64,000 nt of DNA from the NCBI RefSeq assembly GCF_019649055.1, contig NW_026570223.1, positions 1,240,001 through 1,304,000 on the forward strand, written 5' to 3'. The position numbers and the translations under genes are program-made. The notes beneath the pieces were generated by a model. It was given only the letters and a program-made list of their open reading frames with translations, was not told where the DNA came from and did not search any database. Shown in pieces: positions 10,415 through 46,823 of this stretch; position 1 is the stretch's first letter, and each line of letters starts with the position of its first letter. The DNA comes from Paramacrobiotus metropolitanus. Lineage: Eukaryota; Tardigrada; Eutardigrada; Parachela; Macrobiotidae.

Positions 10415-10455
10415 GTCTAGTCTGTCGGGAGATCGAAAGCGGTCCGCAATTCGGT

Positions 10456-20191: not shown

Positions 20192-20775
20192 TGACGTGTG
20201 GGAGTAGGATCACACGCCGGGATGTACGTACGGATGCTGACTGTCCGCCTTCCACCTGCAACATAATGAATAATCTAGTCAATCTCCACTGTGATTTGCT
20301 GTTCTCTTTTACTAGCGGTGTATATGATGTCATAACGCGAAGTCTATATAAGTCGGAGTTGTCACTAATATCGGCAGCAGTCACTGATCAGTAGTCTGAG
20401 ATTTACTTCTGAGACTGTTTTCTAATTACGATTTCCCTGCGTTGTGAACTGTGGTGTGAATTGGATAAAGAGGCAGCAATACTTGTTCCTTCTGATGTAC
20501 ATGATCGTTCCCGGATTATTGCATAGAATACAGGTTTGCTCGTGACACAATCGTCCTAGCTCTTGCCGATCCTCACAGGACTTGCGACCGGAAGTTGTGG
20601 TTGGAGTGTTCCTGCTTAGGGATTCCTGATTCGTGTTCCTGACTCGCTCGTTGTTTCCGCCATAAGGATCTGTTACAGTTTGAGAGTACGAGTGCCTACC
20701 GACTGAGCATTACAGGCGTGGAAGAGTAAAGATGGTTCATGGAGCCCTAACCGGCGTGAACGCTTATACACGACA
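20192..20775 (+). repeat. 5' LTR, 584 bp
   Basis: Starts TGACGTGTGG and ends TACACGACA. A TATATAAG box at 20345-20352 puts transcription start near 20375-20385, so U3 is about 185 bases. Matches 44329-44912 throughout by eye. Confidence 0.93.
20345..20352 (+). promoter_or_regulatory. LTR TATA box
   Basis: TATATAAG in the 5' LTR; a TGATGTCAT motif, close to a CRE/AP-1 site, lies about 20 bases upstream. The same box occurs in the 3' LTR at about 44482. Confidence 0.6.
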
Positions 20776-20792
20776 TGGCGCCCACCGGTGTC
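20776..20792 (+). promoter_or_regulatory. Primer-binding-site candidate
   Basis: TGGCGCCCACCGGTGTC starts immediately after the LTR. The first nine bases (TGGCGCCCA) are complementary to the 3' end of eukaryotic tRNA-Lys(CUU), but the next eight do not fit that tRNA as I know it. The primer could be a diverged tRNA, or the PBS may use only the acceptor end. Confidence 0.6.
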
Positions 20793-21706
20793 TTTTAATT
20801 TTCCCGATGTAACAGAAAATTATTGGTGGAAAGTTTGGTGGTAATTTACAGTAAAAGTGGTCCGTATAGGAAAGGCGTCGAACCGCAAAGGTGCGCCGAA
20901 GGAGGTCAGCGTTCCTGATCTGGCCTAGTTTAATTTATTTTGGCGAGCTTCCTCGCAATTGTGAGCTTCCTCACTGGTGAGCTTCCTCACCAATTAAATT
21001 AAATTAATTTAATTGGACCGTAGGAAAACAGTCGAAACCTTAAAGGTCGACTGTGCGAATTAAGTGGTGTTTTGTGGGTAATTTACGGGTTGTCTGCGCA
21101 AAGCAGTAACTGCGGTGAATAAAGTGTAGTCAGCAGTGTCAGTGTGCCTGGCCTGCAGATCAATCAGATAGTGGGCACCGAGCCATTGACAGTGGCTAGG
21201 TGAGATAACGATCTCCAGCAGCTCGATAAAGGCAAGCCGCAAGCGGTAGCCAAAATCAGCAGCCAGAGATAGTTATCAGTGGAAAAGGTAAACACCGGCA
21301 AACGGTGATTGACCTGTAAGTTAAAATTACGGCAGCACGCAAAGTGCAGCAAAGTAATTTTAGCATCTAGTTCTTCAGTCGTAAACCGCAAAGGCCGACT
21401 GTGTTCAAATTTTTCACTGAGCAGTTCAAACCTCAAAGGAGGACTGTCTAGTGGAAACCGAATCGCATAATCGCAATATCAGAATTTTACGGGAAACAGT
21501 AGCACAATAGTTACTGTATCTATCGTAAGATTCATCCGCAAGTTAGAATTACAGCAGCACGCAAAGTGTGGCAGAGTAATTCTAGAAGCTATCCTTACAG
21601 TCAAACCGCAAAGGTTGGCTGTGATCAAAGTTTCGCGAAACGGTTCAAACCTCAAAGGAGGACTGTTTAGCGAAATTAAATTGCACAATCGCAATTTTTG
21701 AACCTT
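20793..21706 (+). ncRNA. Structured leader with repeated stem-loops
   Basis: The untranslated leader holds six copies of a stem-loop with core AAACC-NN-AAAGG flanked by complementary arms such as CAGTCG/CGACTG: 20874-20897, 21028-21054, 21376-21401, 21421-21447, 21597-21622 and 21641-21665. A block of about 225 bases is duplicated in tandem (starting about 21316 and 21541) and carries two of these pairs. Three GAGCTTCCTC units occur near 20945-20990. Repeated structured motifs just before gag could serve packaging, dimerisation or internal initiation; which of these applies is not shown by sequence. Confidence 0.6.
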
Positions 21707-21748
21707 ATGGTAGTCAGTAGCACAATAGTTACTGAACGCACCGTAAGA

Positions 21749-24700
21749 ATGTCTAATCCAGGAAATAGGAACAAGGCGTTAAGCCAGGTTCCAGAAGATA
21801 AGGTCATAATCGGCCCATATGAAGCAGCAGCGACACAAACCAGATTTAAATTCAAACCGGATGAAATTCCATTAGGGTTAATGTACTTCGCCTTGAACTT
21901 GGAGGCACCCAGTCAAACGAGGGCTTACTGTGGTAAGGCGTGGGTAGATTTCCAAGAATTAGGGAAGTCAGTTGATCCAAACAAGAAAGCTCCCTTTTAT
22001 TATAATGGATGGTATGAGACTGAACGGTGTATTCCAGAAGCTTATCTGGATATCACTGATGAACAGTTTAATGAAGCTGTTGCGAAGGCTCAGAGGTGGT
22101 TACCTGGGTACAAGAAAAACATGGAAGATCGCAGACAAGCGGCCATTATTGCGTTTGAAGCAGCTGCAAAAGTTGGAGTAAAACCAAAGGAGTCCGTTTC
22201 TGACGATCGACCCAAGCGAGCGGTGGCGGCAAAATCGAAAACTACCGAGAATACAGAACAAATTACTTGTAGTGAACCAAATAAAGAACCGCTTAAGCTC
22301 GTAGAGCCACTTTCAGAGGAAAGCCTTTTTAACAAGGAACAACCTCTTCCAGATTTCGATATGGATGAGGATAGCCGATCAGAGGATGATACGCCTATTC
22401 ACATGGCGTTTGGCGAAAATACGGAAATAGCTCTAGAAGCATCTGCAAGAAAGAAAAGTATTATGGGTGGAGCAATGTCTTTTCACCCAACACAATTGAA
22501 ATTACACGCTTTTGTTTCGGAGAAAGATTTCGAACAACCGGATGAAGAGTTTTTAACTAAAGCAAAGGAAGTTGATGATCTTCTGGCCCATACGCAAACC
22601 GACCAGGATGTGGGACTAGTCGCTCGGAAGACGATGCCCGTATTACTCCAGGGTCTGCGGACCTGGATAGCGACGACGAAGTTAAAGGTTGACGAAATGG
22701 GGAACTCTATGTCCCTGGATGCTCGTGTGGATGCGGAACGTAATCTGAAATTAAAATTTCAATCAGATTACAACGAAATGCGTATTAAATTTGAAAACGA
22801 ACAAACCGAGAATGACCGGTTAGTAAATGAATTGCGTATTGCGGCCGACAATTTGTCCCAATCAAGAGATGTCGGCAGGAACGCACAAAATGCTCTTAAT
22901 GCAATGAAGGATGAGCGTGATGGATTAAAGGACGCAAACCGGCATTTAGAAAAACAATTAGAGGAAGCACAGAGAGAGCTGTCGGCAGCGAAAACTACTA
23001 TCGATGGCTTTAAAGCCCAAACACTCCCTGATACGGCGAAGCAGGTCGCGGATTTAGACCAGAAATTATCGAAAGCCCAGCGGGACTTGAATGCGGAAAA
23101 AGACGCGCATAAGTTGACCAATAAAAACTTAGCGGATGCACAAAATCTGTCTCAAAAGCTTGCTAAGGATTTAGATGACGAAAAGAAGCGCGCTAAAGAT
23201 AGAGAGGATACCCTGCAGCGGGACCTAACTAAAGCAAATGTACAGCTTAACAAATTGTCTACGGTTGGCCCAATGCATATTCCTAAGGAAAAGAATGAGC
23301 AGTCTCAAAAAGAGATTGAACGGCTCGAGGGACTATTGGATACGGAAAAGGAAAATAATCGCAAAGTCCAGAAGGAACTGAGCGATATGAAAAATAATAA
23401 CAAATGCGCAAATTGTGAGAAAGCGATCCAAGCAAGGAAGGAAGCACAAGCTGCCGCCTTCGAGAAAGATCAAAATTGTAACCGTTTATATGAAGAAAAC
23501 AAACAGCTTCGTGATGAATGGTACGAAAAACAAGACCAACTTACCAAGTTGGAGGAGGAATTTAAACAAGCGTGCAGTGAGCTCCTCCAGTTTAGAAATG
23601 CAGACGTTGCCCTTGGAGGAGGTCATAGACAGTTTCAAAGGGAAGCCCCAGTAGCGACAGGAGATGTGTTGCGGTCCACTCCACTTTCCCTGTTTGACCC
23701 CCAGAACTTCTCGGTGTCTAACGAACAGCCATCAGCCCCTGTAATAAATCCGGCTGGCATCCTTCGGAAGCCCAGACAGGAATCACGAGTGGGATTTCAC
23801 GAGGCACGTTCGTCCTCGGAAAGTCAGATTCCCAAGGAGACGGTGTCGCCTATTCAAAAGAAAAATCGACCAACAGATTTACGTCAGGAAGTGTTTAAGA
23901 GGGCGTCCGATGACGCTAGTCGTCATGCACGCAGATCTGAAACTAGAGACGGTTCTGATACGGAAAATGAATTAATGGACGACCTGCCTCTGGAGGATGA
24001 GCATCGGCGTCCCAGTAGCACAGCCAGTAACGAATCTACCTCCAGAAATTTAAACCTGGAAGAATGGTTAATTAAGCAGACACAAATATCGGACAGAGCT
24101 GCACTTACACAGGAATGTGTTGTTGAATTAATTACGAAGCTTGCCGAAAAAGGAAATGATAAAACCGAAGGCAGTATGAAACTGCTTACCTTCGATGATT
24201 CACATCCCGAAAAGATTCAGAAGTGGCTCATGAATGTGGAGCAGTGCCGAACCACAAATAATTGGAACGATGAGGTCACGTGTCGCAGAGTTACTGGCGC
24301 ATTTACGGGAGCATCCTTTCAATGGTTTGAGAAATTCTGGAAAGATAATAAAGGTAAATCGTGGGCTGATTTCTTTAAACCGGCAATTATTGAGCACTTT
24401 AACGGCTCCCTTTCTAAAGCCGACATTCGCAGAAAAATGAATAATCGCAAACTGGACTTTTTCGAGCCGGTTCGTGCTTACCTGGATAGTTTCCTCCCAT
24501 GGTTTGAGGAGCTGAAAATTTCAGACGAAGAACAGGTTGAAGCGCTCTTGGAGGGTGTACAAGATCACCGGCCAGCATGGTTCAGGGAAATCTATAATGC
24601 GTCACCCAAGAATTACTCAGAATTTGAAAAGAAACTCCAAGATTGTGAGAAATTGTGGAAACGAATGAATAAAGATAAGAAAGCGCCCGAAACTACCCAA

Positions 24701-26089
24701 AGGAATATACCGACAGAACCAAGAAGTGCAGGCAGTAATAATAATAATAACTCAAATTACGAGAATAGAGGCGGCCGCGGTGGCTCGTCCCAAAGAGGAA
24801 ATTATTACTTGAATAGGGGAGGCCGTGGAAATTACGGGAATAATCGCGGTGGATATTCTCGTTCGTATACTGAGACGGTAATTCCACAACAACAGAATAC
24901 AGTGGCCCCGGTCCAGCCTGTCCTGAATGTTCCCCAGCCACAGTTCGTTTCGGTTCCGGTATATCAGCAACCGCAATTTGTCGAGCAGCATCCAGTACAA
25001 TTTGCGCAGACATTCCAGCAGCCCATCCCGATGCAAGCTGCCATGCCTGTTCCTATGCAGATGATGAATCCGATGATACCGGTAATGCAACCCCAATTTC
25101 AGCAGCCGGCCCAGAATTTTGATCCGCAGTACCAACAGGATGGCCCTGTGAATAATAATAATTATAACGGCAGTGGCAATCATGGGAATTACCGAAATAA
25201 TAATAATTATCGCGGACGTGGCGGTTATAATAATAATAACAATAACCGTCAACAAAACAATTTGAATTACCAGAACCAGAACTCCCGACAAAATCAGCAG
25301 GCTAGCAGCCAGCCTCCGTTCGACGAGCGTAACATTTTAAAAGATAAATGGCGAACAAACCGCGGAGTTGAGATTTGTTTCCGCTGCCATGGGTTACACC
25401 CGGCAGCAGGCTGTAAGAACCAGTTCGTCCTTCCACGTCAGTATGAGCCGTCTGCAGAGCTATTGGCAAAATATAACAACCCGCAGCAGCAAATTAATAT
25501 GATGGAGTTAGACTTACCGGCAGGTTTGTCTTCTCCGATGCCTCAGTGTAATAAAATGGAACTTCAGGATTTTTCGCAGTATCCTCTTGCGGATCATGTC
25601 TGTCTGTTGCCGACGCTGGATGCCCAGGCTTGGTACTCGGTGATTGACATTAATTACCAGAAAGTAAAAACGATGTTGGATACGGGTTCTAGCATCTCCG
25701 TGATGTCGTTAAAGATGGCGAATGATCTGAAACTAAATATTCACCGCTGTCCTGATCATATTAAAGGTAGAGTTGTCCACACAGCTTACCAGGGAAGACA
25801 GCTGATTGAGCCATTGTCGGTGGTGGTTACCATTCATGAATTCGGGATGGCTTTTGAGCATGCAGTCCTGGTGAGCTCCACTTTCGACAGGGACCATGTT
25901 GTTTTAGGTTTGGACTTTTTAGCTACAAAACCATTTGTCTTAGACATGAACACGATGACGTGGCGCCTTTCGCGCAGACCGCCTGGCGCGCCAGTATTTT
26001 TACGTCGTGAAACTCACCTAATGTCAGATGTTATCCGCTCACACGACTTTGATCCTTTAATTCCCCGGGAGTTAAACCGTCTCCTTTGA
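21749..26089 (+). CDS. gag: Gag-protease polyprotein of the giant retrotransposon
   Basis: About 1446 residues from ATG 21749; ATG 21707 is an in-frame alternative. It forms the particle and cleaves the polyprotein. In order: an unrecognised N-terminal domain (to about residue 140); an acidic linker; a long heptad-rich coiled coil (about 22700-23620); a retrotransposon-Gag capsid-like region (24190-24700, with WLMNVEQC...FQWFEKFW); RGG/GAR repeats (24760-24880); a Gln/Pro/Asn-rich tract; a zinc-knuckle variant CFRCHGLHPAAGC (about 25376); and an aspartic protease with DTGSS at 25679 and a downstream VVLGLDFLA flap-like strand. The coiled coil makes it about three times the usual Gag length. 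The stop at 26087-26089 lies ten bases after a GTTAAAC slippery candidate, so pol is probably made as a -1 fusion. Confidence 0.88.
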   Translation: MSNPGNRNKALSQVPEDKVIIGPYEAAATQTRFKFKPDEIPLGLMYFALNLEAPSQTRAYCGKAWVDFQELGKSVDPNKKAPFYYNGWYETERCIPEAYLDITDEQFNEAVAKAQRWLPGYKKNMEDRRQAAIIAFEAAAKVGVKPKESVSDDRPKRAVAAKSKTTENTEQITCSEPNKEPLKLVEPLSEESLFNKEQPLPDFDMDEDSRSEDDTPIHMAFGENTEIALEASARKKSIMGGAMSFHPTQLKLHAFVSEKDFEQPDEEFLTKAKEVDDLLAHTQTDQDVGLVARKTMPVLLQGLRTWIATTKLKVDEMGNSMSLDARVDAERNLKLKFQSDYNEMRIKFENEQTENDRLVNELRIAADNLSQSRDVGRNAQNALNAMKDERDGLKDANRHLEKQLEEAQRELSAAKTTIDGFKAQTLPDTAKQVADLDQKLSKAQRDLNAEKDAHKLTNKNLADAQNLSQKLAKDLDDEKKRAKDREDTLQRDLTKANVQLNKLSTVGPMHIPKEKNEQSQKEIERLEGLLDTEKENNRKVQKELSDMKNNNKCANCEKAIQARKEAQAAAFEKDQNCNRLYEENKQLRDEWYEKQDQLTKLEEEFKQACSELLQFRNADVALGGGHRQFQREAPVATGDVLRSTPLSLFDPQNFSVSNEQPSAPVINPAGILRKPRQESRVGFHEARSSSESQIPKETVSPIQKKNRPTDLRQEVFKRASDDASRHARRSETRDGSDTENELMDDLPLEDEHRRPSSTASNESTSRNLNLEEWLIKQTQISDRAALTQECVVELITKLAEKGNDKTEGSMKLLTFDDSHPEKIQKWLMNVEQCRTTNNWNDEVTCRRVTGAFTGASFQWFEKFWKDNKGKSWADFFKPAIIEHFNGSLSKADIRRKMNNRKLDFFEPVRAYLDSFLPWFEELKISDEEQVEALLEGVQDHRPAWFREIYNASPKNYSEFEKKLQDCEKLWKRMNKDKKAPETTQRNIPTEPRSAGSNNNNNSNYENRGGRGGSSQRGNYYLNRGGRGNYGNNRGGYSRSYTETVIPQQQNTVAPVQPVLNVPQPQFVSVPVYQQPQFVEQHPVQFAQTFQQPIPMQAAMPVPMQMMNPMIPVMQPQFQQPAQNFDPQYQQDGPVNNNNYNGSGNHGNYRNNNNYRGRGGYNNNNNNRQQNNLNYQNQNSRQNQQASSQPPFDERNILKDKWRTNRGVEICFRCHGLHPAAGCKNQFVLPRQYEPSAELLAKYNNPQQQINMMELDLPAGLSSPMPQCNKMELQDFSQYPLADHVCLLPTLDAQAWYSVIDINYQKVKTMLDTGSSISVMSLKMANDLKLNIHRCPDHIKGRVVHTAYQGRQLIEPLSVVVTIHEFGMAFEHAVLVSSTFDRDHVVLGLDFLATKPFVLDMNTMTWRLSRRPPGAPVFLRRETHLMSDVIRSHDFDPLIPRELNRLL
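26071..26077 (+). promoter_or_regulatory. Candidate -1 ribosomal frameshift site GTTAAAC
   Basis: G TTA AAC is in the X-XXY-YYZ register of the Gag frame, ten bases before its stop. GUUAAAC is a slippery heptamer known from arteriviruses. The pol frame is exactly -1 and opens at 26053 after a TGA. The downstream region around CAGCGCTG can form only weak hairpins by eye, so a strong stimulator is not established. Confidence 0.65.
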
Positions 26090-29000
26090 TCCCAGCGCTG
26101 ATGTTGACTGAGCGAATTGGCGTCGCTAAAGAAGCAAAATTTGTACCATATGAGTCTGCACATTTAATTTTGTCAAAAGCTGCTCCAGAAATTTGTATTT
26201 TACACTTACAGAAAGCCAAACAGTCATGGCCTCGTCCAGTTCAATCGCCACCGGCGATAAAAGTTGCGGACGCTCCTATCAAACCGGAAATTGAGGAAGT
26301 TGTGCCCGTACAGGCGGCACCGTCGAAGAAAGGATCCGATCAACGTGATGAGGAGTTTGTCCGTAGTGTAGTTCAGGAGATGATTCGTCAATATCTCCCG
26401 AAAGCGGCTTCCTTCGCTGACGAACCAGTCAAACCTGTAATTAAAAAAGAAATTAAGACAGAGAAAAACCCAGAACCAAGTCAAGTTCGTGGGGGAGGCG
26501 GTGAAATAGTTGTAAATAACATGCAGTCAAGTTCGCGGGGTGGAGAACAAGCCTCTGTTCAGCCGCCATTTAAACAAGAAAAAACTAGTCAGCCGTCGCC
26601 GGCGAGCAGCTCGAGTACCTCGTCTTCGGTATTGGTCAGTCCCGTGCCCAACCCTGGCTCACGTCAAGTTCGTGGGGGTGACGATTCCTTGCAACTTCCG
26701 ATCCAGATTTCATCCTTGGATGCAGTTTTACAACAGCATCCTGCAGCAAAATATTTGTATTTGGGTGTTTTGGAAAAATCCTCTAAATCGGTGGAATGTC
26801 TCAGCATGGACAATAAGTTATTAAATGTTATACCTGTTGAACGTGACCGCAGAGACGTTGATGAAGTCCACGACTATCCGTCGTACATGGCACGGAATCC
26901 AGAGCTAAAAAGGTGGATGTCACCGATGGATAGGCCGCAGGATAAAGGCTTGTTTCCTACAGAAAAAAGGTTTAGAGATCCACAATTCTGGAGGGAAACC
27001 CAACAGATATGTGTGGATAGTCGGATGTGGTACAAAATGTATAAGAAACCGTCGCACGCTAATACCAACTTCACCAAGTACGAAATTAATCGGATGATAA
27101 TATGTGAAGGAATTTTGTGCAGGGTGCCCGATCATAACGGCGCTTGTCCGAGGATTTATGTGCCACATCAATGGCGGCAGAAATTGATAGCGTGCTTTCA
27201 CGATATTTTAGTGCATAAGCAGGTATATGGCCGGTGCGAAAAATTATATCCGTATCTTGTTAAAGTTTTCTATTGGCCGGATTGTATAATTGAAATTGAG
27301 CGCTATGAAAAGAACTGTGACGTTTGCCGAAATTCAGTGAACGATCGCCGGCATTTCGAAACCCTGAGGCGTACCGAACAATTACATGCACAGGAAGCCA
27401 CAGGCAAACGCAAGGTTACCTTTTCTGTGGATAACCCTGCACCTGCTGGTGAATTCGAGGATGGTAACTTCATTCCTGCGGACGGTATGAATCCCATTAA
27501 TATCGGTCCCTGCCCGGTTTCCTACGAGGATAAACAGGCGGAGAAGCAAAGAGTAATAACTTCTCAAACGACTGATAACTCACCGCAAGAATACGCGTTG
27601 ACGAGTCAGCATATGTCCGATTTGGTACCCTCGGCCGTCAGAGCAACATATGATACGCCTACGAATGTGAATATTAATGAACAGTGGGCAATCTGGAACG
27701 AAATTATGGAACAGAAAACGTCAAGAGAGTCTACAGGTGCTAATTCAGCGCAACCTACCGTGGGAAATATTGAACAATCACTGGAAAGTTCGGAAAGGAG
27801 TTCTCCCAGGCGAAAAAAGTCCAGTTACAGTCGCAGAATTAAGCGCGAATACGCGGAAAGAGAGGCGGCAAGCCAGATGTCCGCAGAGACAGTGCAGCCG
27901 GCACCGGTGTTACAACAACCGACGGCTAAAGACTTACCGAAACGGTCTCAGGACGTCCGAGAATCCACAGATATCCCGGCATGCGTGTATACAAAGGATG
28001 TCATCGAATTGGCGTACAGGGACGCCCACCTGAAACAAGCTCAAGCACAGACGGAAGTAAATTTAGCAGAACAGGATATTTACCGTTTTGAGCCTGAACC
28101 CGGCCCAATTGATTGCTTCAAAATGGAGCTTTTTCCAGCTTCTCCTGTTATAATTCAGCCCCATTCGCAAGGCATTATCCGTGCAACGACGTTTATGTCT
28201 GATGAACAATTCATGGAATTCCAGGATGAGTATTTATATACTCAGCCATTTCTCTACGAAGGAAAAATACCTGAATCGAATAAAAATGCGGTATTACTGG
28301 ATGGCGTCCTGACGCTTAACGAATATGGCAATTGTCGAGTCTGCGTCGTGAATGTTTCGGATAAACCACTCTTATTAAACGAAGAAACTAACCTTGGCGA
28401 AGTTGCGCTCGTCGATGCAGTGTATCAGACGGACTCTCCGGAGTTCCACGAAATTTTACACGACGAGTCCGGTAATGTTTTACGCCAGGAGGAAGGCGTC
28501 CCAGTCTCGGACAAAATCAGTGAATGTGTCGCGATGCAGTTGCAGCCTCCTCCTCCCAGCCCTGTCGACCCTGAAACAGAAGAAACGTTTGCTAAAATTA
28601 AAGTAGGAGATATTTGCCCAAGCAAAGAAGAATTAAAACAGATCTTTTATCAAACAAAGTCAGTCTTACCAACGAAAGCTCGTCCAGTCGGATGTTGCAC
28701 TATTTACGAGCACTCGGTGGACACTGGAACGAGTTTGCCGGTCCGAACTCCTCCGTATCGCACATCGTTCGAAGACAGGAAATGGCTCCAGGCTAAAACA
28801 CAAGAAATGATCAAGGATGGGATCATTGAGCCGACTAATTCGGCATGGGGAAGTCCTATTTGTATGGTAAAAAAGAAGGATAAATCCCGGCGACTAACTG
28901 TCGATTTTCGTAAATTAAATGAACGATTAATGGGCAGCAGTTACCCGCTCCCTAGAGTTGACGATATTCTCAACGCCTTGGACAAGGCTACGGTGTTCAG

Positions 29001-33605: not shown

Positions 33606-34155
33606 TAGTTGTCTGTAAAATACAGTACATAACGTTGGCTTTTATGTTTTACGATCCTTCGGCTGCTATGTCTCCTTATTCTAAGTGCCGTTATTTTCCT
33701 GGCCGAGATAGTCTTTTTTAGTTTTAAATTCTTGTACAGAACTTTTCTTCTTAGTTTACAAACAGCTTGTTGGCACAATTTTACGATGTAACTAGCTCAC
33801 CGATTAGTCCTTTGGAGCTTAGCGGCTGATGTTCAATAATAAATCCGCTGAATAGGCCCGATAAATTCCTTCTAATTTGCAATTCTGTGAAAATCTGGTG
33901 GAAATGATTAGAATAGTCATAAAATGTGCAAGTCTTGCAAGTTTCAAGAAAAACTCAGGCTTTCACGTTCCAGTTTGCAAACAATAGTACTGTGGTGGCA
34001 ACCGCCCGTGTGTCGTTAAATGTTAGGGCAGAGCCGGTTTGGGGCGCTCAGCTGTTTCCGGTTGTTGCAGTGCGTCAGCAGTTTTCCTGCTTCAACTCGT
34101 CGACATAATTCATTCTTCTTTATCTGACTTTCATTAGCTAGTTTTCTTGTTCAAT
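33606..34155 (+). other. Spacer inside the giant retrotransposon
   Basis: 550 bases with AATAAA at about 33838 (possible poly(A) site for accessory protein A) and no gene that I can support. Confidence 0.4.
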
Positions 34156-34962
34156 ATGGAGATGGAATTTTATAAAAGTGAGCGTGGGCGCATGATCTGT
34201 GCAGAGCAGGATGAAAAGAAGCGCCGTAAGTTTGTGGAATTTTCTGATGTGGTGTCGTACTTAACGGCGAACCAAGAACATATCGTGAAGTTTGTTTACT
34301 TTTGGCGTTCTCTGGTCGCTCCTTATACCTCTATTAAGGAGCTGTGTAAGCTGTCCAACTCTGAAATCATGGCCTTGAACTTTGCAGAAGTTGAGCCATT
34401 GGATTTTGAGGCTCAGGTGGCTTTAGCCATTGCGGATATTCGTGCTTCGGAGATGTTGCTGTATTACGTGAAGGTGGGCTTTGTGTTGTCCCCTGACACT
34501 CCGGTTCGCCGTGAAGCTGTTGAGCGAATCCGTGCGGAATTCGGCTTGCCGTCTCTGTTTAATCCACCGGAATCTCCGCGTGCTCGCCGTCTTCGCCGAC
34601 AAGCTGAAGAGAAAGAACGCATGGAGGAGGAACTCTGTTGCGTTGACTGCGAAAATTTCGGCCCAGGTACCTGTGGTCGTATTCGATGGTCTGAGCCAGA
34701 AGTTAAGCAAGCAGCCGAGCCAGCGGTCGAAATCGATGAACCAATTCCGAACATCTGGGGATCTGACGAGCTGGAGAACTGGAAGGATGACTGGTGGGAA
34801 CAGAACAAGCTGGATTTTCCAGACCCACTGAAGGTTTGGCCGGAAGATGCGTTGTGGGTGGACGAAAAACTCGGCATTGAGCAGACACCCAGGCAGAAGC
34901 GTAAGCTCATCGTTGTGCAGCGACATTCCTTGCGCGGAATTCCTTATAATTACTGGAAGTGA
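34156..34962 (+). CDS. Accessory protein B of the giant retrotransposon (268 aa, unknown function)
   Basis: Starts at ATG 34156. The helical N-terminal half contains SDVVSYLTANQEHIVKFVYFW and a hydrophobic helix with ASEMLLYYVKVGF. A basic segment PRARRLRRQAEEKER (about residues 140-155) could be a nuclear signal. It precedes a small Cys cluster CCVDCENFGPGTC, which could bind zinc. The C-terminal third is Trp- and acid-rich (WKDDWWEQNK) and ends basic. No known family recognised; no membrane segment long enough for an envelope protein. Confidence 0.6.
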   Translation: MEMEFYKSERGRMICAEQDEKKRRKFVEFSDVVSYLTANQEHIVKFVYFWRSLVAPYTSIKELCKLSNSEIMALNFAEVEPLDFEAQVALAIADIRASEMLLYYVKVGFVLSPDTPVRREAVERIRAEFGLPSLFNPPESPRARRLRRQAEEKERMEEELCCVDCENFGPGTCGRIRWSEPEVKQAAEPAVEIDEPIPNIWGSDELENWKDDWWEQNKLDFPDPLKVWPEDALWVDEKLGIEQTPRQKRKLIVVQRHSLRGIPYNYWK

Positions 34963-36260: not shown

Positions 36261-36695
36261 ATTTTTGCGTAGAGCGACCCCGCTGGTGTAGTAGTGGCTC
36301 CCGTTACTGCCTTCGTGCTGGTCGGAGGTTCTAATCCATATAAAAATACAATTTTGTAATTACACCTTTTTTTTTGGTTTTATTATCATATGCTTTCACA
36401 TTTTAAGGCACTGGATTAAATAATACGAATTATGGCCTATTCTACAGTGAGAGCCATCGCTACGAAAAACCGGAAACTTCAATGGTGTCAACTGTACGAT
36501 ATTAGATGGCAGCAGTTTTGTCGATGCCTTGCGTAGCGTAGTGGTCTAGACAAGAAGACAATACTAGGCGACTCTCCGCTAGGTATGCCTTGCGTATTCT
36601 CTTCGGTGGTGCTAATTTTATTCTAAGCATCGGTGGGCGGCGCACAAATGTACAATCCCTTGCGTCTTGGTTATGTTGTTTTCGTTGAAACACGT

Positions 36696-36770
36696 CGTAG
36701 TGTAGTGGTCGTGTAGCCAATTTCTGCAACCACCCGGTCAATTTAAGGTTTTGGGTTCAAACCCCCACAG
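36696..36770 (+). ncRNA. tRNA-like module with good A and B boxes
   Basis: TAGTGTAGTGG followed by GGTTCAAACCC at 36754-36764, then T-runs near 36790. One of the best-preserved units of the array. No acceptor stem. Confidence 0.45.
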
Positions 36771-37189
36771 ATAAAGCATATTTCATTACATCTTCCTTTT
36801 TTGATTCTATATTTTTATGGTCTCGTGTATTAATATTTTGGTGGGGTCGGTTTGAATTTTGCTGTCACGATGAATGAGCAATAATGTTATACTCGGGAAT
36901 TCCGTACGGCCGCGTCGTTACTATAGGCGTAATATTGTGTATTTCCGGTGTCAGGTTTAAATTCCTTTTAGTGGAGGATATTCCATGGTGTAGTGGCTAG
37001 ACCGACAATCCACACTAATCAGCTGTGTCGAGGTCTAGAGTTCAAGTCTCTAAAAATAAATTGTGTATTTCAGAATTTTCTTTTTGGGTCTCAGATTCTT
37101 ACATTCGTGCTAACAAATGCGTGTCTCTGAGGAATACAATTTTTCGATCATCTCCGATAGAAGAACTAAAAAATTAACATCGTAGAACG

Positions 37190-37275
37190 CCGTAGTATAG
37201 TGCTAATCAGTCGGTGGTGCTTGACCTGTTGAACGACGACAATGGTGAATTGGAAGGCTTCGGGTTCGAAACCCT
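37190..37275 (+). ncRNA. tRNA-like module with a near-perfect B box
   Basis: TAGTATAGTGCTAATCAG, similar to tRNA-Asp/His D arms, followed by GGTTCGAAACCC at 37263-37274, then a CTTTTTGG terminator-like run. No acceptor pairing. Confidence 0.45.
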
Positions 37276-37677
37276 TTACAGTTAAACTGCAATTTTAGAA
37301 AACTTACTTTTTGGTTTAGATATTTTTATTGGTGCCTTACCTAAGATATTCGCAGTGGCGATTTGAATTTTGAGATTACTACAATGGAGCGGTTCTATAA
37401 ATCAACTGCACATTATACTGATAGTTGTATGTATATGAAGCCTAATCCCTCAGTTCTGTGTCTCTGGTCGGATGATTTCGTAGTGTGGTGGCCGAGCAAA
37501 TAATCAAGGAAATTACTTACTGAAGTCTCGGGTTCATTTGTAGTATAGTGTCTCACTTGCAGAGCCACAAGAAGGAGCTAGTCCACACCGTTTAATCGAA
37601 ACTCTTTTGAATTTGTACTTACAAAATTTTTGTTCTCGCAGTATTTCTGAATTTAGCCACCTGATGAACTGTCACAT

Positions 37678-37706
37678 ATTATACACGACATGGCGCTTCC
37701 GGTGTC
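37678..37706 (+). repeat. Degenerate copy of the LTR-end/PBS junction inside the array
   Basis: TTATACACGACATGGCGCTTCCGGTGTC matches the junction at 20764-20792 except for a small indel/substitution in the middle. A weaker copy (TATACGCATGGCGCTTACGGTGTC) is at 38423-38446, and the fragment TTTCCGGTGTCA is at about 36941. The first two lie about 45 bases before an A box. Confidence 0.65.
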
Positions 37707-38560
37707 AAAGTTAACTGGGCCTCTACGTAGAGCACCTCGTAGCGTAGTGGCTAGACCGGGAATTCTCGTTCTCCAACTGCTTCAAGGTCTAGAGTTCAAA
37801 TCCCTAAAGTTAAAATTGCGAATGTTGAAAACCTCCTTTTTCGGATTTATATTTTTATGATAATGTAGAATAATGTGTTGACATTGTCACAGATAATTTT
37901 GCAATCGTTTCCGTTGAGCAACTTAGAAGTTACCGTCGTAGAATGTTGTAGTGTAGTGCTTTGCACCGTTGAACTACTGCAACGGGGAAACTAAAAAGTT
38001 TCGGGTTCAATCCCTCACTATTAATTTGCATTTTCTGGGAAACTTACTTTTTCTTGTTCTATATTTTTATTACCGCCTTGGAAAGGTACTGGCAATATTC
38101 CCTGGAATTTCAGAATTAGAGTGGAAGAGCGGCGCATGTATGCGTATATTCTTCAGGTGACAGTGCGTATGCTCGTGTCTTCACTTGCAATTGAATGACT
38201 TCGTAGTACAGTGGCTGGGAATGATGGCCATTCATTACAATTACTACCTCTTTGATAATCTCAGGGTTGCATGTTGCATGTCAGGACTCTCCTTTTTGCG
38301 TTCCCTTTTCTATATTTGTATATATTTCTGAAACGAAATTATTTCAGAGAAGAATTCTGAACTCGGTGATTCGGTCGCAAAAGCAACGTATAAGTTCAGT
38401 GCTTTACTGTAGTCATATATTATATACGCATGGCGCTTACGGTGTCTAGATAATTGTTTGGAAATGTGCGTAGTCACGCTAGCGTAGTGGCAAGAACAGG
38501 ATGCAGCTGTGCAGCTAGACTCCAGGTTCAACTCCACGTTAAGCGCAATTTTGTGGGTTA

Positions 38561-38904
38561 GAAAATTTCTTTTTATCTCTTTTTGGTTTTTGTTGATGCT
38601 GATTTATGCGGATGTACTCTGTCTTCGGAAATTAAATTCATACCGATTGCAAACTACGGCTAAAATTCTTTTAATTGATTCCGGCAACATTATTACGACC
38701 GGCAATTACACCCTCTCGATAAAAGTTCATGTTAAACTCAAAGGATGAGATCTGTACGACCAGGATAATCAGAAATTATATGAGCAAAATTGGTAAATTT
38801 AAACTCAGATCCAAAGTTAAAATACAACCAGGATACAGGAAACACCGGCTGAATTACCAACGAATTATTTAGACAGCCACCAGAGATGTATAAAACACTA
38901 GAAT
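38561..38904. other. Spacer between the array and the antisense gene
   Basis: No gene that I can support. Confidence 0.35.
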
Positions 38905-40288
38905 CTAATCTAAATCCACGTCTTCCTTGGCATTGTTGATATTGGCTACACGCTGTTCCAAAGCCTCGCGCACATATTTGATGTGATCGATGCCGGTGTA
39001 CACGCGCGCTTTTAAAGTGTTCACCAACGCCTTACAGTTCTTCATGATGCTCTGCTCACTTTCGACCATCCTCAGTAGTTTATCGATGTCTTCGGCGTTA
39101 TCATCGCCTGGTTTTTCAGCCTTGGCCTTAGCTTTTTCAGCTTTGGTGGCCCCACGCTCTTTATTTTTCTGGGTCTTTTCTCGTTGTTCATTCTTTTTCG
39201 CTACTACATATCGCGGGCGAGCATTCATCTCTTTTAGTTGACTTAAGGTGATAATTGGCTCTCGTTTAATCCGAGCACCTTTGTTGGAGCGAACAAGCAG
39301 GTTGGCTCCGATAGTGTTGTTTTTCGCTGGCTCGATGGCGTCCAAACGCTCCATCACCCCGTCGATGATTAGCTCGACGTCTTCGCCCACATAGCCGAAA
39401 CTGGCGTCGGTCACTTGTTGTTCCGATTCTGCTCCGTTCTTTTCGATCTTTAGACTGGCCATCTTCACGTCTGCAAATCAGTCTAGTTATACAAATGTGC
39501 GGAAAAGTCACGCTATGTTTATTCTACATCTCGTACAATTGTACACAGCTTGCTTACAGTTCTATGATTTTGAAATTACAGTATGCGCTTCGATTTGTCG
39601 CTAGTAATCACACAACATACTTACTGATTGTTTGAGCCAGAGTGTCGCACAGACAACAACCGCGAATACTGCGCAGCCACAAGTCTATGCAGCTGTGGAC
39701 ATAAAGATTCCCATAAACCATCACCACTTGTTTCTTCTCAAGGAGCCGATGTAGGCCGCGGTTGAACCAGTACTCGTAGTTTTCCAACTGTAGGTCGTAT
39801 GTCCCGGTAGCCCACTGTTGAATTTCTGGCCGGCTCATGGCGTAGCGTGCGTGGTAGAGAATTGCGCGAATCATACAGCGAAGTTTGCTGTAAGTATCCA
39901 CCAGTTTCACTTTGCGGTTGTTATACACATCTTCTGCGACTTCCAAAACGAAGCGCCCGTCGCGCGACATTTTCTTCAGTAAAATTCCAGCATTAATCGC
40001 GTCCTCCAAGAAAACTTCGACGCGATCCGCGGTGAAGTCCGTGTGCATATCCTGTACGAACTGTTTAATAGCTGCAATATCCACATAGAAACCGGTAATA
40101 TCCGCTTCGAGAATGCAGGCGTGCGCGGCTGTGTGCATAGCCAGTTGACGACGGTTTTTAGCGGTCTCGTTCTCCATCAAAGGCGCATCCATGGCTAACT
40201 GCACAGATTCTCGTGTGCGCTCCTTCCAATACCGAGCGTGTTCAATCGCATCTGTCTCTGCCGATGGTTCTCCGGGTAGTGCAGCCAT
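38905..40288 (-). CDS. Antisense two-exon accessory gene of the giant retrotransposon (409 aa)
   Basis: Encoded against the element. Exon 1 is 40288-39625, the intron is 39624-39471 (GTAAGTATG ... TTTGCAG, 154 nt), and exon 2 is 39470-38905; the join is in phase and gives 409 residues. Exon 1 begins at ATG 40288 and encodes a mixed helical domain with EADITGFYVDIAAIKQFVQDM and a Cys pair at its end (GCCLCD). Exon 2 has a very basic central part (KKNEQREKTQKNKERG and AEKAKAKAEK) followed by an acidic coiled-coil-like C terminus. I recognise no family. A basic plus coiled-coil antisense product recalls the antisense HBZ gene of HTLV-1 by position only. It needs its own promoter, which I could not identify. 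Confidence 0.7.
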
Positions 40289-40885: not shown

Positions 40886-42364
40886 ATGTCTTCCACTCCG
40901 AAGAAGCCTACTGCGGCTGCGCGTAAAACGGTTACACCTGTGGCTCGCTCTCGCAGAGAAGTGTCAAGCTTGTCGTTTGGTTATTCGCCTGACAGCGATG
41001 AAGCTCGTTCCTCCAGCAGAGTCACTCGATCACAAGTTTCTCGGCGTACGTCGTCGCAGCCAGCGTTTTCTGCCCAGTCGGCTGAGCCATCGGGAAGTAG
41101 GACCGCAGCAAAGAGTCCTAAACCTTCAACTAGTAGGACGGAGGCGATAGTTGGCGCGCTGAAGAACCGTTATCGCGAAGCAAAGCGACGAACTATTGCT
41201 CGACGCAATGCGGCTGTGGTTCGCTGTCGTGATCGCCGCGGATCATTTCCTGCTGATCCTGACGTCGAAATTCGTCAGCCGTCACCGAAGAAACTGCAGA
41301 CGCAGGCGGAGAAACAGTTGGGCACTCCAGATCTCTCTGAAGAGGAGCCATCATCGTCCGAGACTCCGTCTGTGCGAGCAAAGCAAGGTATTGTGTAGCC
41401 CGTATTTTGCTTAGCCCGTGTTGGTTTGGTAATTGCTAGGCTTACATTCTGCTTGCTTTTCACTACTTTCCCTCGCTTTTGCACAGCTGTAAGGTGTTGT
41501 TTACAAACCTGGTTAAGACCTATCGTCTAGGCTCTATTTATGATAATCGCTGGCTTTTGTTCAATGACAGATGAAGAGCATCTGCGCAAGGGTGGCATCC
41601 TTTATGTCCCGTATAACCCGGATGCACCGCGGCCGATTTATAAGACCAAACAGACAGCCCGCAAGCGTGCGTCCTCGCCTGTATTTCCACGAATGGCTTT
41701 GGCGGATACGCGGGGTGAGCATCAATTAGTTATTACAGAGGCTTATTTTCCCGGCCTGAATCGGTTCCATCGCTATTATCCGCGTTTATATTTGTCTCGA
41801 TTTTTGTATCGCAATGGAGCTCTCATTAATCGTTTTGATCTATGTATTATCACTCGTTCATTGCCTACGGATATTGCTCTTGAGTTGCGTCGTCAGTACC
41901 TTTATTTAAATCCTGTTTTTCTGGCCTTATTTGAAGCTATCGGAAAGCATCAGCAGGCAGATGCGCTTGCCCGTCAAGTGTCTGTTGTGGCTGGAAATAT
42001 GGAAGATGCTGAACCATCCACTTCAGCGGGGCCATATTATCTTCGTTCTCGTGGCCAAAAGCGCAAGTACAAGGAGGTCTCGCCGTCCTCGTCTTCACCG
42101 GAAAGCGAAGTCTCGGTTTCGGATAACGATGACAGCGACGATCCAGCTCCAGTGCTCTCTGCTGATGAAAATGCGGACGATGAAGCCGACTGTGACGAAG
42201 AGAATCATATCGATGGATCCGATTTGGAGAACATGGACGTAGATCCCTTGCCGTCCATGCAGCCAGTCGCTCTTGCTGTCCCAGCTATTGTCCATGAAGA
42301 CTCGCCTGAATTTCCCGAACCGGCAAATTACGACCAACCGCAACCACATTCGGAGGAATTGTAA
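40886..42364 (+). CDS. Spliced accessory gene D of the giant retrotransposon (431 aa)
   Basis: Exon 1 40886-41387 and exon 2 41571-42364 join in phase across a 183-nt intron (AAG|GTATTG ... TTTTGTTCAATGACAG|AT) to give 431 residues. Exon 1 encodes a basic, Ser-rich, histone-tail-like region (MSSTPKKP..., RSRREVSSLSFGYSPDSDE, RYREAKRRTIARRNAA). Exon 2 begins DEEHLRKGGILYVPYNPD and carries the pattern shared with accessory protein A (R-x-LYRNG, then D-x-ALELRRQYL). It then has a basic RSRGQKRKYKE signal and a long Asp/Glu/Ser-rich tail. The combination suggests a nuclear or chromatin-associated protein, but no known domain is recognised. ATG 40886 is chosen because the upstream frame is low-complexity. 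Confidence 0.65.
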
Positions 42365-42879
42365 TTGCGGTATTGTCTTATCATTTTTTGTTATGATTTC
42401 TTCCTTTTTTTCGTATTGTGCTGACCTCTTTTGTTAATACATTTTCAATTGTATTTTGCATTATCGAGGATGGAAGGAATTGTGTGCCTTATTTTCTTCA
42501 ACTTTTATTTCCCCATTTTATACGCTTTGAGTCAATGAACTGGTCGTTGTACGTACTATGTAGTTGTGTAAGCGTCACTGCCGAATCTTCCGTTGTGCCT
42601 AGATTAGATCTGATCTCTTGATTAAGTTGAATTAAAAGGATATAGCGCGAAGCGCTGATTGGTCGTTTCTTTTACCTGTGGAATCTGCCGCACTTTAAAT
42701 TTTCGCGTCGACCGACAGGTATAAAATCATTTGCGTGTAGCGTGCAGAAATCGGCATTGTGGATTTTTCGTTTCGGCCTTCTGGCGTGTCTGATTTTCAG
42801 TATCTGTAGACTGCGATTTTGACGTTTTTCTCCTTACATTTTTTAGCGTTAAAGGTCATTAGTTTTCTTTAGTTTGGGC
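42365..42879 (+). other. Promoter-containing spacer before the RGG gene
   Basis: 515 bases without a gene; contains the TATA box at 42720. Confidence 0.45.
42720..42726 (+). promoter_or_regulatory. Internal TATA box
   Basis: TATAAAA in a GC-richer context about 155 bases before the ATG of the RGG-box ORF; transcription would start near 42750. Indicates that some accessory genes are transcribed independently of the LTR. Confidence 0.6.
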
Positions 42880-43662
42880 ATGCCGCCTATTGATCCAAAC
42901 CGTGCCTTTGATAAGTTGGTAGACGCCATTTTTCACTCGTCTTCCAACCAGCAGCAGAATAATGCCGGTTATAATTACCGAGGAAGGGGTGGAGGCCGTG
43001 GCTCTTTCCGTGGCAACTTTCGTCCGTACGGCAGAGGAAATCATAGGAATTTTGGAGACAATAATCTCCGTCGCGGAAACAATCACTGGCGTCGTAATGG
43101 CCGACATCTGGGCGCACCGGAGATTATTGAAATACCTGATGGAGCTCCTCACGCAGCTGCACCAGTGGAAGCTCCCGCCGCAGACATGGAGGTTGATCTC
43201 CCGGGAAACCAAGCGCCGCATGCGCAGGATCCGATCCAAGGCAATGGAGCTGTGGTTGCAGGTCAGCCCCATGGTGTCGACCCTGCTGTCAATTTACCTG
43301 GCCCGCCAGCCCTGAATGTTATCCCTCCGGCTGTTATTCCGCCCCTGCAGGCCCAAGTTAACGCTGAATTTCCGGGTTTGCCGCCGAATGTTGTACCGTT
43401 ACCCGAAGTGCCGATTGTCCGTGATGCCCGTGACCGTTCTCCAGCTGATCGTCCACGCGCGCCGTCTGCGCCCTCCGGCCCCGTTGGTTCAGCTGAGCAC
43501 AATTTTGTGCCTGGATATTTGGCTCAGCAGCAGCAGCGTGAATTGGATGCAGATCGTCGCCGCCAGATGGCTGCGGATGTTTCTCGCCGTTTGGATGCCG
43601 CTGCAGCATCTGGTTCTGGTATCACTGGATTGTTCTCATTGGCTCCTAATGCTGGCAAGTAA
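42880..43662 (+). CDS. RGG-box accessory protein E of the giant retrotransposon (260 aa)
   Basis: Starts at ATG 42880. Residues 28-75 form an Arg/Gly/Asn-rich RGG box (YRGRGGGRGSFRGNFRPYGRG), typical of RNA-binding and phase-separating proteins and similar in style to the GAR tract of this element's Gag. The middle is Pro/Ala/Val-rich and disordered. The C-terminal 50 residues form a helix with QQQQRELDADRRRQMAADVSRR. No catalytic domain. It has its own TATA box upstream and AATAAA downstream at 44009-44014, so it is probably an independent transcription unit; a nucleocapsid-like or RNA-chaperone role is a guess. Confidence 0.65.
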   Translation: MPPIDPNRAFDKLVDAIFHSSSNQQQNNAGYNYRGRGGGRGSFRGNFRPYGRGNHRNFGDNNLRRGNNHWRRNGRHLGAPEIIEIPDGAPHAAAPVEAPAADMEVDLPGNQAPHAQDPIQGNGAVVAGQPHGVDPAVNLPGPPALNVIPPAVIPPLQAQVNAEFPGLPPNVVPLPEVPIVRDARDRSPADRPRAPSAPSGPVGSAEHNFVPGYLAQQQQRELDADRRRQMAADVSRRLDAAAASGSGITGLFSLAPNAGK

Positions 43663-44328
43663 CCTTGAATAACCTTTCGATGATCTGTTGTTGTTTCCTT
43701 TTGATCTCACCGGTATTACTGGTTATTGTTCTGTTTTGTATATCACTTTAATGCATTGGAGCTGCATTACCTTCCGTTGTTGTTGCTCTTTTATTGGTTT
43801 CTACCTTCGTGTTGGTTGACCCATATTATGCACTTATGATCTTTATGCCTAGCTTGTTTGTTATTGTTGACAGTTGTTACTGGATGATGTAGTACTCGAG
43901 AATTCGTAAGAATACTACTCGTTGCTTGGTTCAGTCCTTGTGCTCGTTTAATGCATAATTTTACAAAATCGCACACAATTACATTTTAAGATTTTAGATT
44001 TCACAATCAATAAAGCTTTATGCCGTACGCTATACATATAGTCACACCATCTAAAAACTGCACATGCAGTATCAGTAATTCATAGTTCCGCCTTCCTGGA
44101 TCCTTTGGACCTCCGCCCTGCCAAACCCGTGGACTTCCGGATGCCTTTTCGCCAAGGATTCCACACACTAACTCATTCGGAATCGCGGCGTACAGTCATA
44201 TCGGGCATCGGATGGACACGTGGATTGTGCGGTGGATCGGGATCGGGATGGATGGAAGTGCACAATCGCACTGGGATGTTGCGGGATGGATTGTTTATAT
44301 TGGCACGGCCAAGCATCGTTCGTGGGGG
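43663..44328 (+). other. 3' untranslated region before the 3' LTR
   Basis: Contains AATAAA at 44009-44014 and a purine-rich stretch at about 44228-44262. The LTR is preceded directly by GTTCGTGGGGG (44318-44328), the likely polypurine tract. Confidence 0.5.
44318..44328 (+). promoter_or_regulatory. Polypurine tract candidate
   Basis: GTTCGTGGGGG abuts the TG of the 3' LTR. Short for a PPT, but the G-run is in the required position for plus-strand priming. Confidence 0.5.
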
Positions 44329-44912
44329 TGACGTGTGGGAGTAGGATCACACGCCGGGATGTACGTACGGATGCTGACTGTCCGCCTTCCACCTGCAACA
44401 TAATGAATAATCTAGTCAATCTCCACTGTGATTTGCTGTTCTCTTTTACTAGCGGTGTATATGATGTCATAACGCGAAGTCTATATAAGTCGGAGTTGTC
44501 ACTAATATCGGCAGCAGTCACTGATCAGTAGTCTGAGATTTACTTCTGAGACTGTTTTCTAATTACGATTTCCCTGCGTTGTGAACTGTGGTGTGAATTG
44601 GATAAAGAGGCAGCAATACTTGTTCCTTCTGATGTACATGATCGTTCCCGGATTATTGCATAGAATACAGGTTTGCTCGTGACACAATCGTCCTAGCTCT
44701 TGCCGATCCTCACAGGACTTGCGACCGGAAGTTGTGGTTGGAGTGTTCCTGCTTAGGGATTCCTGATTCGTGTTCCTGACTCGCTCGTTGTTTCCGCCAT
44801 AAGGATCTGTTACAGTTTGAGAGTACGAGTGCCTACCGACTGAGCATTACAGGCGTGGAAGAGTAAAGATGGTTCATGGAGCCCTAACCGGCGTGAACGC
44901 TTATACACGACA
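44329..44912 (+). repeat. 3' LTR, 584 bp
   Basis: Direct repeat of 20192-20775, same length, no difference found by eye. Ends CA, followed by CGTC. Confidence 0.93.

Positions 44913-46823
<1,911 letters not shown>

Follow-up and report, generated by a model that had tools for sequence, protein, structure and literature searches.

A Ty3/gypsy LTR retrotransposon of 24.7 kb lies at positions 20192-44912 of the stretch of Paramacrobiotus metropolitanus DNA analyzed here (64,000 nucleotides, hereafter the window; coordinates refer to it, and features are on the + strand unless otherwise indicated). No N occurs anywhere in the window. The 5' LTR (20192..20775) and the 3' LTR (44329..44912) are each 584 bp long with TG...CA ends and show 0 mismatches to one another, and the unstranded target-site duplication (TSD) CGTC is found on either side, at 20188..20191 and 44913..44916, as an earlier note on this DNA had described. 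The primer-binding site (PBS), TGGCGCCCACCGG (20776..20788), is complementary over 13 nt to the 3' end plus CCA of the host tRNA-Lys(CTT). A leader containing a 218-bp direct repeat in 1.9 copies (21318..21734) overlaps the beginning of the gag ORF as listed, and the polypurine tract core, CGTGGGGG (44321..44328), is located immediately 5' of the 3' LTR, as it is in other copies; in copy L017 the tract reads CGTGGGGT. LTRs, TSD, tRNA PBS, polypurine tract and the order protease, reverse transcriptase (RT), RNase H, integrase are thus all present, which identifies the element as a member of the Ty3/gypsy class. The internal region measures 23.6 kb, of which 11.9 kb separate the pol stop from the 3' LTR and hold five larger sense and two antisense ORFs, in agreement with the claim of at least five further genes within the LTRs.

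The gag gene, followed by an aspartyl protease (Pfam PF13975, 7.5e-7), occupies 21698..26089 and, read by eye, encodes long coiled-coil-like and RGG/N-rich parts. Domain search identified RT, RNase H, H2C2 and rve integrase domains in pol (26086..32424), whose relatives are gypsy-type with 29-43% identity, some of them named 412, Ty3-I or K02A2.6-like (120 listed of 893). Two extra HHCC (H2C2-like) zinc modules were found in pol, one N-terminal (residues 372-414; 27199..27327) and one C-terminal (residues 2067-2109; 32284..32412); the N-terminal module matched the C-terminal one at 6e-14 and the integrase module at 2e-8 in BLASTP, E values that refer to a pairwise search space without composition correction. 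A similar C-terminal HHCC module is readable in L032, a copy of family B. In the window copy gag and pol are in two separate frames, and in five of 38 close RT matches the RT lies inside an open frame of 3,218-3,538 codons, implying a single gag-pol frame in those copies. The element had been called complete; this holds for its structure but, with gag and pol in two frames, not necessarily for its function.

Downstream of pol, accessory ORF1 (271 aa; 32790..33605; 86 genome matches) and ORF2 (271 aa; 34147..34962; 70 genome matches) both showed a dN/dS of 0.12, for ORF2 over 247 codons. ORF5 (40886..41398, counted from the Met where conservation begins) is basic by eye; for the ORF as listed, from 40745, 174 codons gave a dN/dS of 0.12. 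ORF5 shares its frame with ORF6 (274 aa; 41540..42364; 91 genome matches; dN/dS 0.09), which in copies C37, C156 and C52 forms part of an open frame 481-534 codons long. On the - strand lie as1 (187 aa; 38905..39468), with pN 0.23, pS 0.77 and saturated dS, and as2 (226 aa; 39608..40288), with 125 genome matches and a dN/dS of 0.06; 37 of the first 47 antisense-gene matches were stop-free. The antisense gene noticed earlier is borne out and consists of two reverse-strand ORFs, as2 with this low dN/dS and as1 with pN far under pS. Codon periodicity together with dN/dS supported coding for ORF1, ORF2, as1, as2, ORF5 and ORF6. The values of 0.06-0.12 in five cargo ORFs come, like those for as1, from comparing the window copy with one other copy, and are rough since dS is high (0.96-2.7). 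ORF7 (260 aa, RGG/Pro-rich; 42880..43662) could be aligned at all 10 tested 3' LTR loci, with 77-99.6% over the longest piece, and is damaged at two of them, by stops in L016 and a frame break in L007; its dN/dS was 0.16-0.28 in nine of 10 compared copies, the tenth being nearly identical. The cargo ORFs thus appear to be under purifying selection (dN/dS about 0.06-0.28), of which all seven accessory ORFs show signs.

Pfam searches with ORF1, 2, 5, 6 and 7 gave no readable function, and none of the cargo was recognisable as a captured host gene. Paralogy of ORF1 and ORF6, which look similar by eye, was supported by neither hhalign nor BLASTP. For as2, a linker-histone-like winged helix is possible: it matched the linker histone profile PF00538 at 2.6e-4 (21.6 bits, cut-off 22.4; one of three members matched), and a PDB profile search returned histone H1 at E 0.5. 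AlphaFold models of the whole protein and of its C-terminal part were unusable (pLDDT 39 and 41). A search of candidates taken from 5.8 billion proteins yielded no as2 homologue with an E value of 1 or less, and none was found in viral contigs; as the window's own as2 protein was also missing from the protein search, that result may reflect annotations in which transposons are masked.

The genome contains many copies of this arrangement. Searching with the LTR gave 40 scored matches of 184 candidates, among which eight other LTR pairs spaced 23.4-24.4 kb all enclosed the cargo. Of eight LTR pairs examined at their ends, seven showed a 4-bp TSD and seven had 0-2 LTR mismatches. At 57 antisense loci (window included), ORF1 was present at 53, ORF2 at 54 and ORF6 at 55, all three together at 51 and none of the three at 0, and ORF1 lay downstream of RT in 37 of 38 close RT matches. 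Among ten RT matches at 86-89%, ORF1 was found in eight and the antisense gene in eight; without C333, which carries a main-family ORF1, these figures are 7/9 and 8/9. Two older families were also recognized. In family B, the LTR-bounded copy C9 resembles the window element in as2 (38%), ORF1 (31%), ORF6 (40%) and ORF7 (1e-10). In family C, as2 retains 28% identity (E 5e-15), LTR-like repeats are present in C292, four tRNA-like units were seen in the one array looked at, and at least three of 15 RT matches had the antisense gene among the matches listed. The downstream ORF of family C is weakly linked to family B ORF1 (2.8e-5; window ORF1 0.25, ORF6 7.4), and BLASTP gave no support for ORF7 in that family, although both proteins are RGG-rich. 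Homology of as1 between families A and B likewise found no BLASTP support, and HMM matches of as1 and as2 across families are circular wherever the profile contained that sequence. Retention of the antisense gene, the tRNA-like array and an ORF1-like gene in both older families indicates that the module is old. The one stretch of family D inspected, L044, contains mixed ORFs and neither array nor accessory module.

In family A, and in the one copy each of families B and C inspected, a tRNA-like array separates the sense genes from the antisense genes that converge on them; in the window it spans 2.3 kb (36274..38582) and comprises by eye about ten units with A box, B box and T-run. Seven of them meet strict criteria and three have no clear B box. 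Twelve family-A arrays contained 4-8 strict units each, whereas shuffled sequences averaged 0.09-0.25 (at most 3 in any one shuffle) and the opposite strand of these arrays had 0; in 14 of 14 arrays strict units were confined to one strand. The first T5 followed at 38-50 nt from the B box in 59 of 66 cases versus a background of 6.2%. The A and B boxes are strongly conserved, and units were more conserved than spacers in all four tested pairs, the smallest contrast being 0.856 vs 0.834. These observations give substance to the small-RNA-like array of the earlier note, as a one-strand row of tRNA-like units with boxes and T-runs at fixed spacing, and the layout of boxes and terminators makes the units candidate type-2 RNA polymerase III (Pol III) transcription units. 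By contrast, folding of seven units was no better than that of shuffles (z -1.9 to +1.0) and covariation was slight, so that RNA-structure support for the predicted array products is weak; stable, hairpin-forming RNAs resembling miRNA precursors are unsupported on both counts. ARAGORN and Rfam detected no tRNA cloverleaf and no known RNA in the array. A higher-order repetition of about 740 bp is visible by eye. The array also repeats the LTR-end/PBS junction (ACACGACATGGCGC...CCGGTGTC; 37683..37706), whose 14-base core recurs with 0-1 mismatch in nine of the 12 family-A arrays and in all 12 when up to 3 mismatches are allowed, a tolerance at which pol and L044 also give one match each.

Several alternatives to a functional array of small-RNA genes were weighed. 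The array might act as DNA only, its TFIIIC-bound B boxes insulating the sense genes from the antisense unit without any functional RNA. Strongly conserved boxes, units of ordinary folding stability and weak covariation, and the position of the array between convergent genes in three families all suit such an insulator; terminators at a fixed distance in 59 of 66 cases would however be superfluous for TFIIIC binding alone, and we regard this explanation as unlikely, if worth serious consideration. Less probable still is an array without function, made up of tRNA-derived SINEs inserted long ago or of tandem duplicates in decay. Uneven unit quality, with three of ten window units wanting a clear B box, and the higher-order repetition would fit such decay, but strict units are one-stranded throughout and outconserve their spacers. 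Moreover, a search of the genome with one array unit returned 40 scored matches (46 candidates), every one within an element copy. Of these, 39 lie 1.4-2.6 kb ahead of an antisense gene and the 40th is 5.6 kb from one; without dispersed scored matches of this unit outside element copies, a SINE origin is disfavoured.

Other explanations concern the element as a whole. An assembly join, or a nested insertion, that brought unrelated host genes in between the LTRs is ruled out for practical purposes by independent copies on many contigs: the eight other full-length LTR pairs have the same content, plus TSDs, and the three other genes are in place at 51 of 57 antisense loci. The genome search proposed in the earlier note thus returned full-length copies of matching content, and the case that would have counted against it, gag-pol-only copies with the cargo elsewhere, was not seen; together these observations argue against a join and place the cargo, common to dozens of copies, inside the element and not beside it. 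The element could also be an endogenous errantivirus-like retrovirus whose env was lost or is hidden among the accessory ORFs, since these occupy the usual env position and giant planarian Burro elements show env-like homology in the part of the source available (PMC6431247). This is very improbable: the cargo ORFs, taken unspliced, gave no Pfam env match and no transmembrane-like hydropathy (the 19-residue Kyte-Doolittle maximum, 1.41, falls before the conserved part of ORF5).

We therefore favor, with a probability of roughly 0.7, a recently inserted copy from a lineage of giant Ty3/gypsy elements in tardigrades, with an old, co-inherited 12-kb module whose likely role is to regulate the life cycle of the element itself. 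Transcription from the LTR would yield a genomic RNA for which host tRNA-Lys serves as primer and the element-encoded integrase carries out insertion, and spliced mRNAs, or mRNAs with internal starts, may supply the sense accessory proteins. A separate promoter would serve the antisense pair, which could encode a nuclear DNA- or chromatin-binding regulator. Pol III transcription of the array would give RNAs about 100-130 nt long, which may act on host silencing or translation; alternatively, bound TFIIIC may separate the convergent sense and antisense units. More tentatively, and at slightly less than even odds, these elements might form an animal retrotransposon clade with its own regulatory system of about ten Pol III tRNA-like RNAs, an antisense chromatin-type regulator and further proteins; they would then be giant metavirus-like elements of a 'complex' type and, among LTR retrotransposons, the first known to have a Pol III small-RNA array of their own.

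In the usual view, gag and pol suffice for LTR retrotransposons. Here, further genes and a tRNA-like array have been kept together despite strong divergence in a young, copy-rich lineage, and so presumably serve the element. It offers a natural test of the role of accessory genes without env, and bears on whether retroelements in general make use of Pol III RNAs, as well as on how a 24-kb genome is reverse-transcribed.

Complex retroviruses produce accessory proteins from spliced subgenomic RNAs, and the likeness to them drawn in the earlier note stands as regards accessory content; it fails in that nothing env-like or strongly hydrophobic was found among the unspliced cargo ORFs. The TMERs of murine gammaherpesvirus 68 consist of a tRNA-like part followed by strong hairpins, and bovine leukemia virus makes Pol III miRNAs. 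The array resembles both in being a series of tRNA-like units, with the A/B promoter internal and a T terminator at the end, carried by a mobile or viral genome; unlike TMERs, its units fold no better than shuffles, and host and element class are different. HTLV-1 has, close to its 3' end, the antisense regulatory gene HBZ, which as1 and as2 resemble in placement; an antisense promoter is mentioned for HTLV (PMC7264820, in part). A paper on tardigrade transposable elements covers, in its available portion, two other species (PMC11071193). In a literature search with thin coverage of subscription journals, no report of this element and no tRNA-like array in any LTR retrotransposon were recognised.

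The element compares more closely with giant LTR retrotransposons and with the Retand-type elements of plants than with a complex retrovirus. According to the partial text of one source (PMC6431247), plant Ogre elements are gypsy elements of 16-25 kb with extra ORFs and LTRs of 1.9-6.5 kb, and in the gypsy-like Burro elements the internal region can reach 25 kb, with accessory functions encoded for the most part within a single giant polyprotein that includes env-like, BIR, ankyrin and BCL2-like parts. The size of Ogre is largely LTR, whereas here the LTR is 584 bp and size comes from cargo and a long gag-pol. Like Burro, the present element is a giant animal gypsy-type element with accessory content; unlike Burro, it has separate genes after pol, antisense genes and a tRNA-like array, and Pfam found no Burro-type domains (BIR, ankyrin, MATH, BCL2-like, env-like) in the window element. 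Retand, a Ty3/gypsy element with recently active copies and an internal region of 7.4-12.9 kb, has, in the sections of its description available (PMC11963269), a long pol-to-3' LTR region with repeat arrays and an antisense ORF for a predicted DNA-binding protein with domain TRP28, as the window element has antisense ORFs and an array in this region; recent activity of copies is a further point in common. It differs from the window element in its plant host, in internal length (23.6 kb here) and in its arrays, which those sections do not describe as tRNA-like; Pfam did not find TRP28 (PF04195) in the window antisense ORF. The parallel nevertheless suggests convergent acquisition, between pol and the 3' LTR, of antisense and possibly DNA-binding genes together with repeat arrays.

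The cargo lying between pol and the 3′ LTR, namely sense ORFs 1, 2, 5, 6 and 7, antisense ORFs as1 and as2 and a tRNA-like array, is part of the element at 20192–44912, as the earlier note had proposed. The assembly searched comprises 169.8 Mb in 533 contigs (170 Mbp has been reported for the Paramacrobiotus metropolitanus genome; PMC11191345), the window being C3:1240001–1304000, and yielded 125 matches for as2, 86 for ORF1, 70 for ORF2 and 91 for ORF6. Linkage was counted at the 57 as2 loci assigned to the main family, window included; additional fragments of a locus already counted were set aside, as were weaker ones, and weak rows were omitted from the underlying ORF match lists. ORF1 accompanied as2 in at least 53 loci, ORF2 in at least 54, ORF6 in at least 55 and all three in at least 51; no locus lacked all three. 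Linkage was also assessed from 38 complete or nearly complete reverse transcriptase (RT) matches of at least 93% identity, window included. ORF1 was found 2.7–3.4 kb downstream in 37 of them and as2 within 13 kb in 32; among the remaining six, those on C23 and C11 are at most 6.3 kb from a contig end, and on C50 as2 lies further away.

The window element has identical LTRs of 584 bp and the target-site duplication (TSD) CGTC. Searching the assembly with the LTR gave 184 candidates, of which 40 were scored; these included eight further LTR pairs spaced by 23.4–24.4 kb (C213, C94, C69, C78, C156, C136, C38 and C52) and an internally deleted copy with a spacing of 9.5 kb (C224). All eight long pairs contained matches to ORF1, as2 and ORF6, as2 being broken in C69. 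Comparison of the ends of eight pairs revealed no LTR mismatches in the window, one in each of C69, C78, C156 and C136, one plus one gap in C213, two in C224 and nine in C94, and 4-bp TSDs in all but C94, where none was found. Near-identical LTR pairs and TSDs indicate that the lineage was recently active. Six lone LTRs (L004, L008, L010, L019, L020 and L022) were flanked by 4-bp TSDs, as expected for solo LTRs. A copy at a contig end (C73:1468–5051) is 99.76% identical to window positions 42829–44915, from before ORF7 through the 3′ LTR, and its ORF6 protein is only 82% identical to that of the window; it is a mosaic, which suggests template switching or conversion between copies. In one copy on C50 (466141–471577), ORF1 and ORF2 are present twice, about 3.2 kb apart, which is a local duplication.

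The primer-binding site (PBS), TGGCGCCCACCGG, comprises 13 nt complementary to the end of tRNA genes with the 3′ part GGTTCGAGCCCCCCGGTGGGCG, CCA being added at the tRNA 3′ end; the two such genes examined were identified by ARAGORN as tRNA-Lys(CTT). A 218-bp direct repeat of 1.9 copies (21318–21734) lies between the PBS and the start of gag. According to Pfam, the first ORF ends in a gag-type protease, and the second contains RT, RNase H, H2C2 and rve domains. Pol (26086–32424) contains two extra HHCC integrase-type zinc modules, one upstream of RT and one C-terminal. BLASTP, run in a pairwise search space with no correction for composition, detected similarity between the two (6e-14) and of both to the integrase module (2e-8 and 4e-8). 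In family B, a more diverged family, a comparable HHCC module is readable at the C-terminus of pol. In the window copy, the overlapping gag and pol ORFs occupy different frames; in 5 of the 38 close RT matches RT lies within an open frame of 3,218–3,538 codons, implying a single gag-pol frame in those copies.

Comparison of the window with C94 gave dN/dS ratios of 0.12 for ORF1, ORF2 and ORF5, 0.09 for ORF6 and 0.06 for as2, which are rough because dS is high (0.96–2.7); for as1 dS was saturated (pN 0.23, pS 0.77). ORF7 could be aligned at all ten 3′ LTR loci, with 77–99.6% identity over the longest piece; it is interrupted by stops in L016 and broken in L007. Its dN/dS was 0.16–0.28 at dS 0.27–0.44 in nine of the ten copies, the tenth being nearly identical. 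Low-change codon positions moved with frame and strand, matching the ORF predictions.

Families were delimited by RT identity to the window (1,559 candidates, 109 scored): A at about 93–100%, B at 86–89%, C at 65–69%, D at 56–59% and others lower, with a few fragments or decayed copies between bands. Eight of the ten RT matches assigned to band B had ORF1 and eight had as2; one of them, C333, is a main-family copy, since its ORF1 is 88% identical to that of the window, and without it the counts are seven and eight of nine, respectively. Twelve as2 loci at 30–36% identity were accompanied by ORF1 in nine cases, ORF6 in eight, both in seven and neither in two. The family B copy on C9 has LTRs identical over the 468 bp compared, 25.5 kb apart start to start, and is 89% identical to the window in RT, and over matched parts 38% in as2, 31% in ORF1 and 40% in ORF6; its ORF7 matches that of the window with E 1e-10. 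A further ORF (L050:3487–4308) is present between its ORF7 and 3′ LTR, none being seen in the window. In band C, direct repeats resembling LTRs, about 0.9 kb long and 93% identical, are present in the C292 copy (RT 68%). A C50 copy, assigned to this band on the near identity of its downstream ORF to that of C292, carries four tRNA-like units in addition to as2 (28% identity, E 5e-15) and a downstream ORF1-like gene (2.8e-5 against ORF1 of family B). As2 was found in at least 3 of 15 band C RT matches, among the matches listed, and neither module nor array in one 10-kb stretch examined from band D. These comparisons indicate that the accessory module is old, that its proteins diverge far faster than RT, and that place and order are kept wherever the module is kept.

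The 2.3-kb array (36274–38582), between ORF2 and the antisense genes, contains about ten units built on an A box, B box and T-run plan, all on the sense strand. Under strict criteria seven units were counted in the window and 4–8 in each of 12 family A arrays, versus shuffle means of 0.09–0.25 (at most 3 in any single shuffle); the opposite strand of these arrays had none. One family B array had three and one family C array four. The first T5 lay 38–50 nt from the B-box start for 59 of 66 B boxes (at most one mismatch, 12 arrays), compared to 6.2% of random points. Units were better conserved than spacers in all four pairs tested of 11 possible (0.885 versus 0.825, 0.861 versus 0.771, 0.856 versus 0.834 and 0.809 versus 0.738). 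A one-unit probe gave 46 candidates in the genome, 40 of them scored; 39 precede as2 genes by 1.4–2.6 kb, and the remaining one belongs to a C50 copy, at a distance of 5.6 kb from as2. Solely from promoter and terminator anatomy, these are predicted Pol III units. Folding z-scores of seven units (−1.93 to 0.96) and the scarcity of compensatory changes count against a structured RNA, as does the lack of any Rfam or ARAGORN match in the array. The core of the LTR-end/PBS junction recurs with 0–1 mismatch in 9 of 12 arrays and with at most three in all 12; at the latter threshold single matches occur also in pol and in L044, and the 39 kb of host DNA searched on the flanks contained no match. In the window array, copies of the junction lie at 37683–37706 and about 38421–38447, where by eye a short hairpin is possible.

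Elsewhere in the window, minus-strand ORFs at 7513–13481, two with RVT_1 matches and in higher G+C, are probably the remains of another retroelement. Rhodopsin-type GPCR genes, a very large family in this genome, are located at 15885–16448, 61440–62459 and 63315–63995; for one of the window's GPCR genes, the top-ranking homologue with a species name is a P. metropolitanus protein, which aligns to C54 with 99% identity across residues 1–171 and 91% across residues 163–281. An inverted repeat at 50607–51071 has 61-nt arms, 98% complementary and 343 nt apart.

The cargo ORFs had no Pfam match above cut-off. For as2, one of three members showed a sub-threshold linker-histone match, and a PDB profile search a weak match to histone H1 (E 0.5). 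The cargo showed no transmembrane-like stretch, and thus no env was seen. Gypsy elements of giant size are already known, as are extra ORFs in antisense; the literature searched yielded no report of the combination in an animal, nor of a tRNA-like array within an LTR retrotransposon. Plant Retand elements are comparable: their antisense ORF codes for a predicted DNA-binding domain, and about half of them carry repeat arrays at the corresponding place (PMC11963269; also PMC7264820). By analogy with them, we read the module as putatively regulatory.
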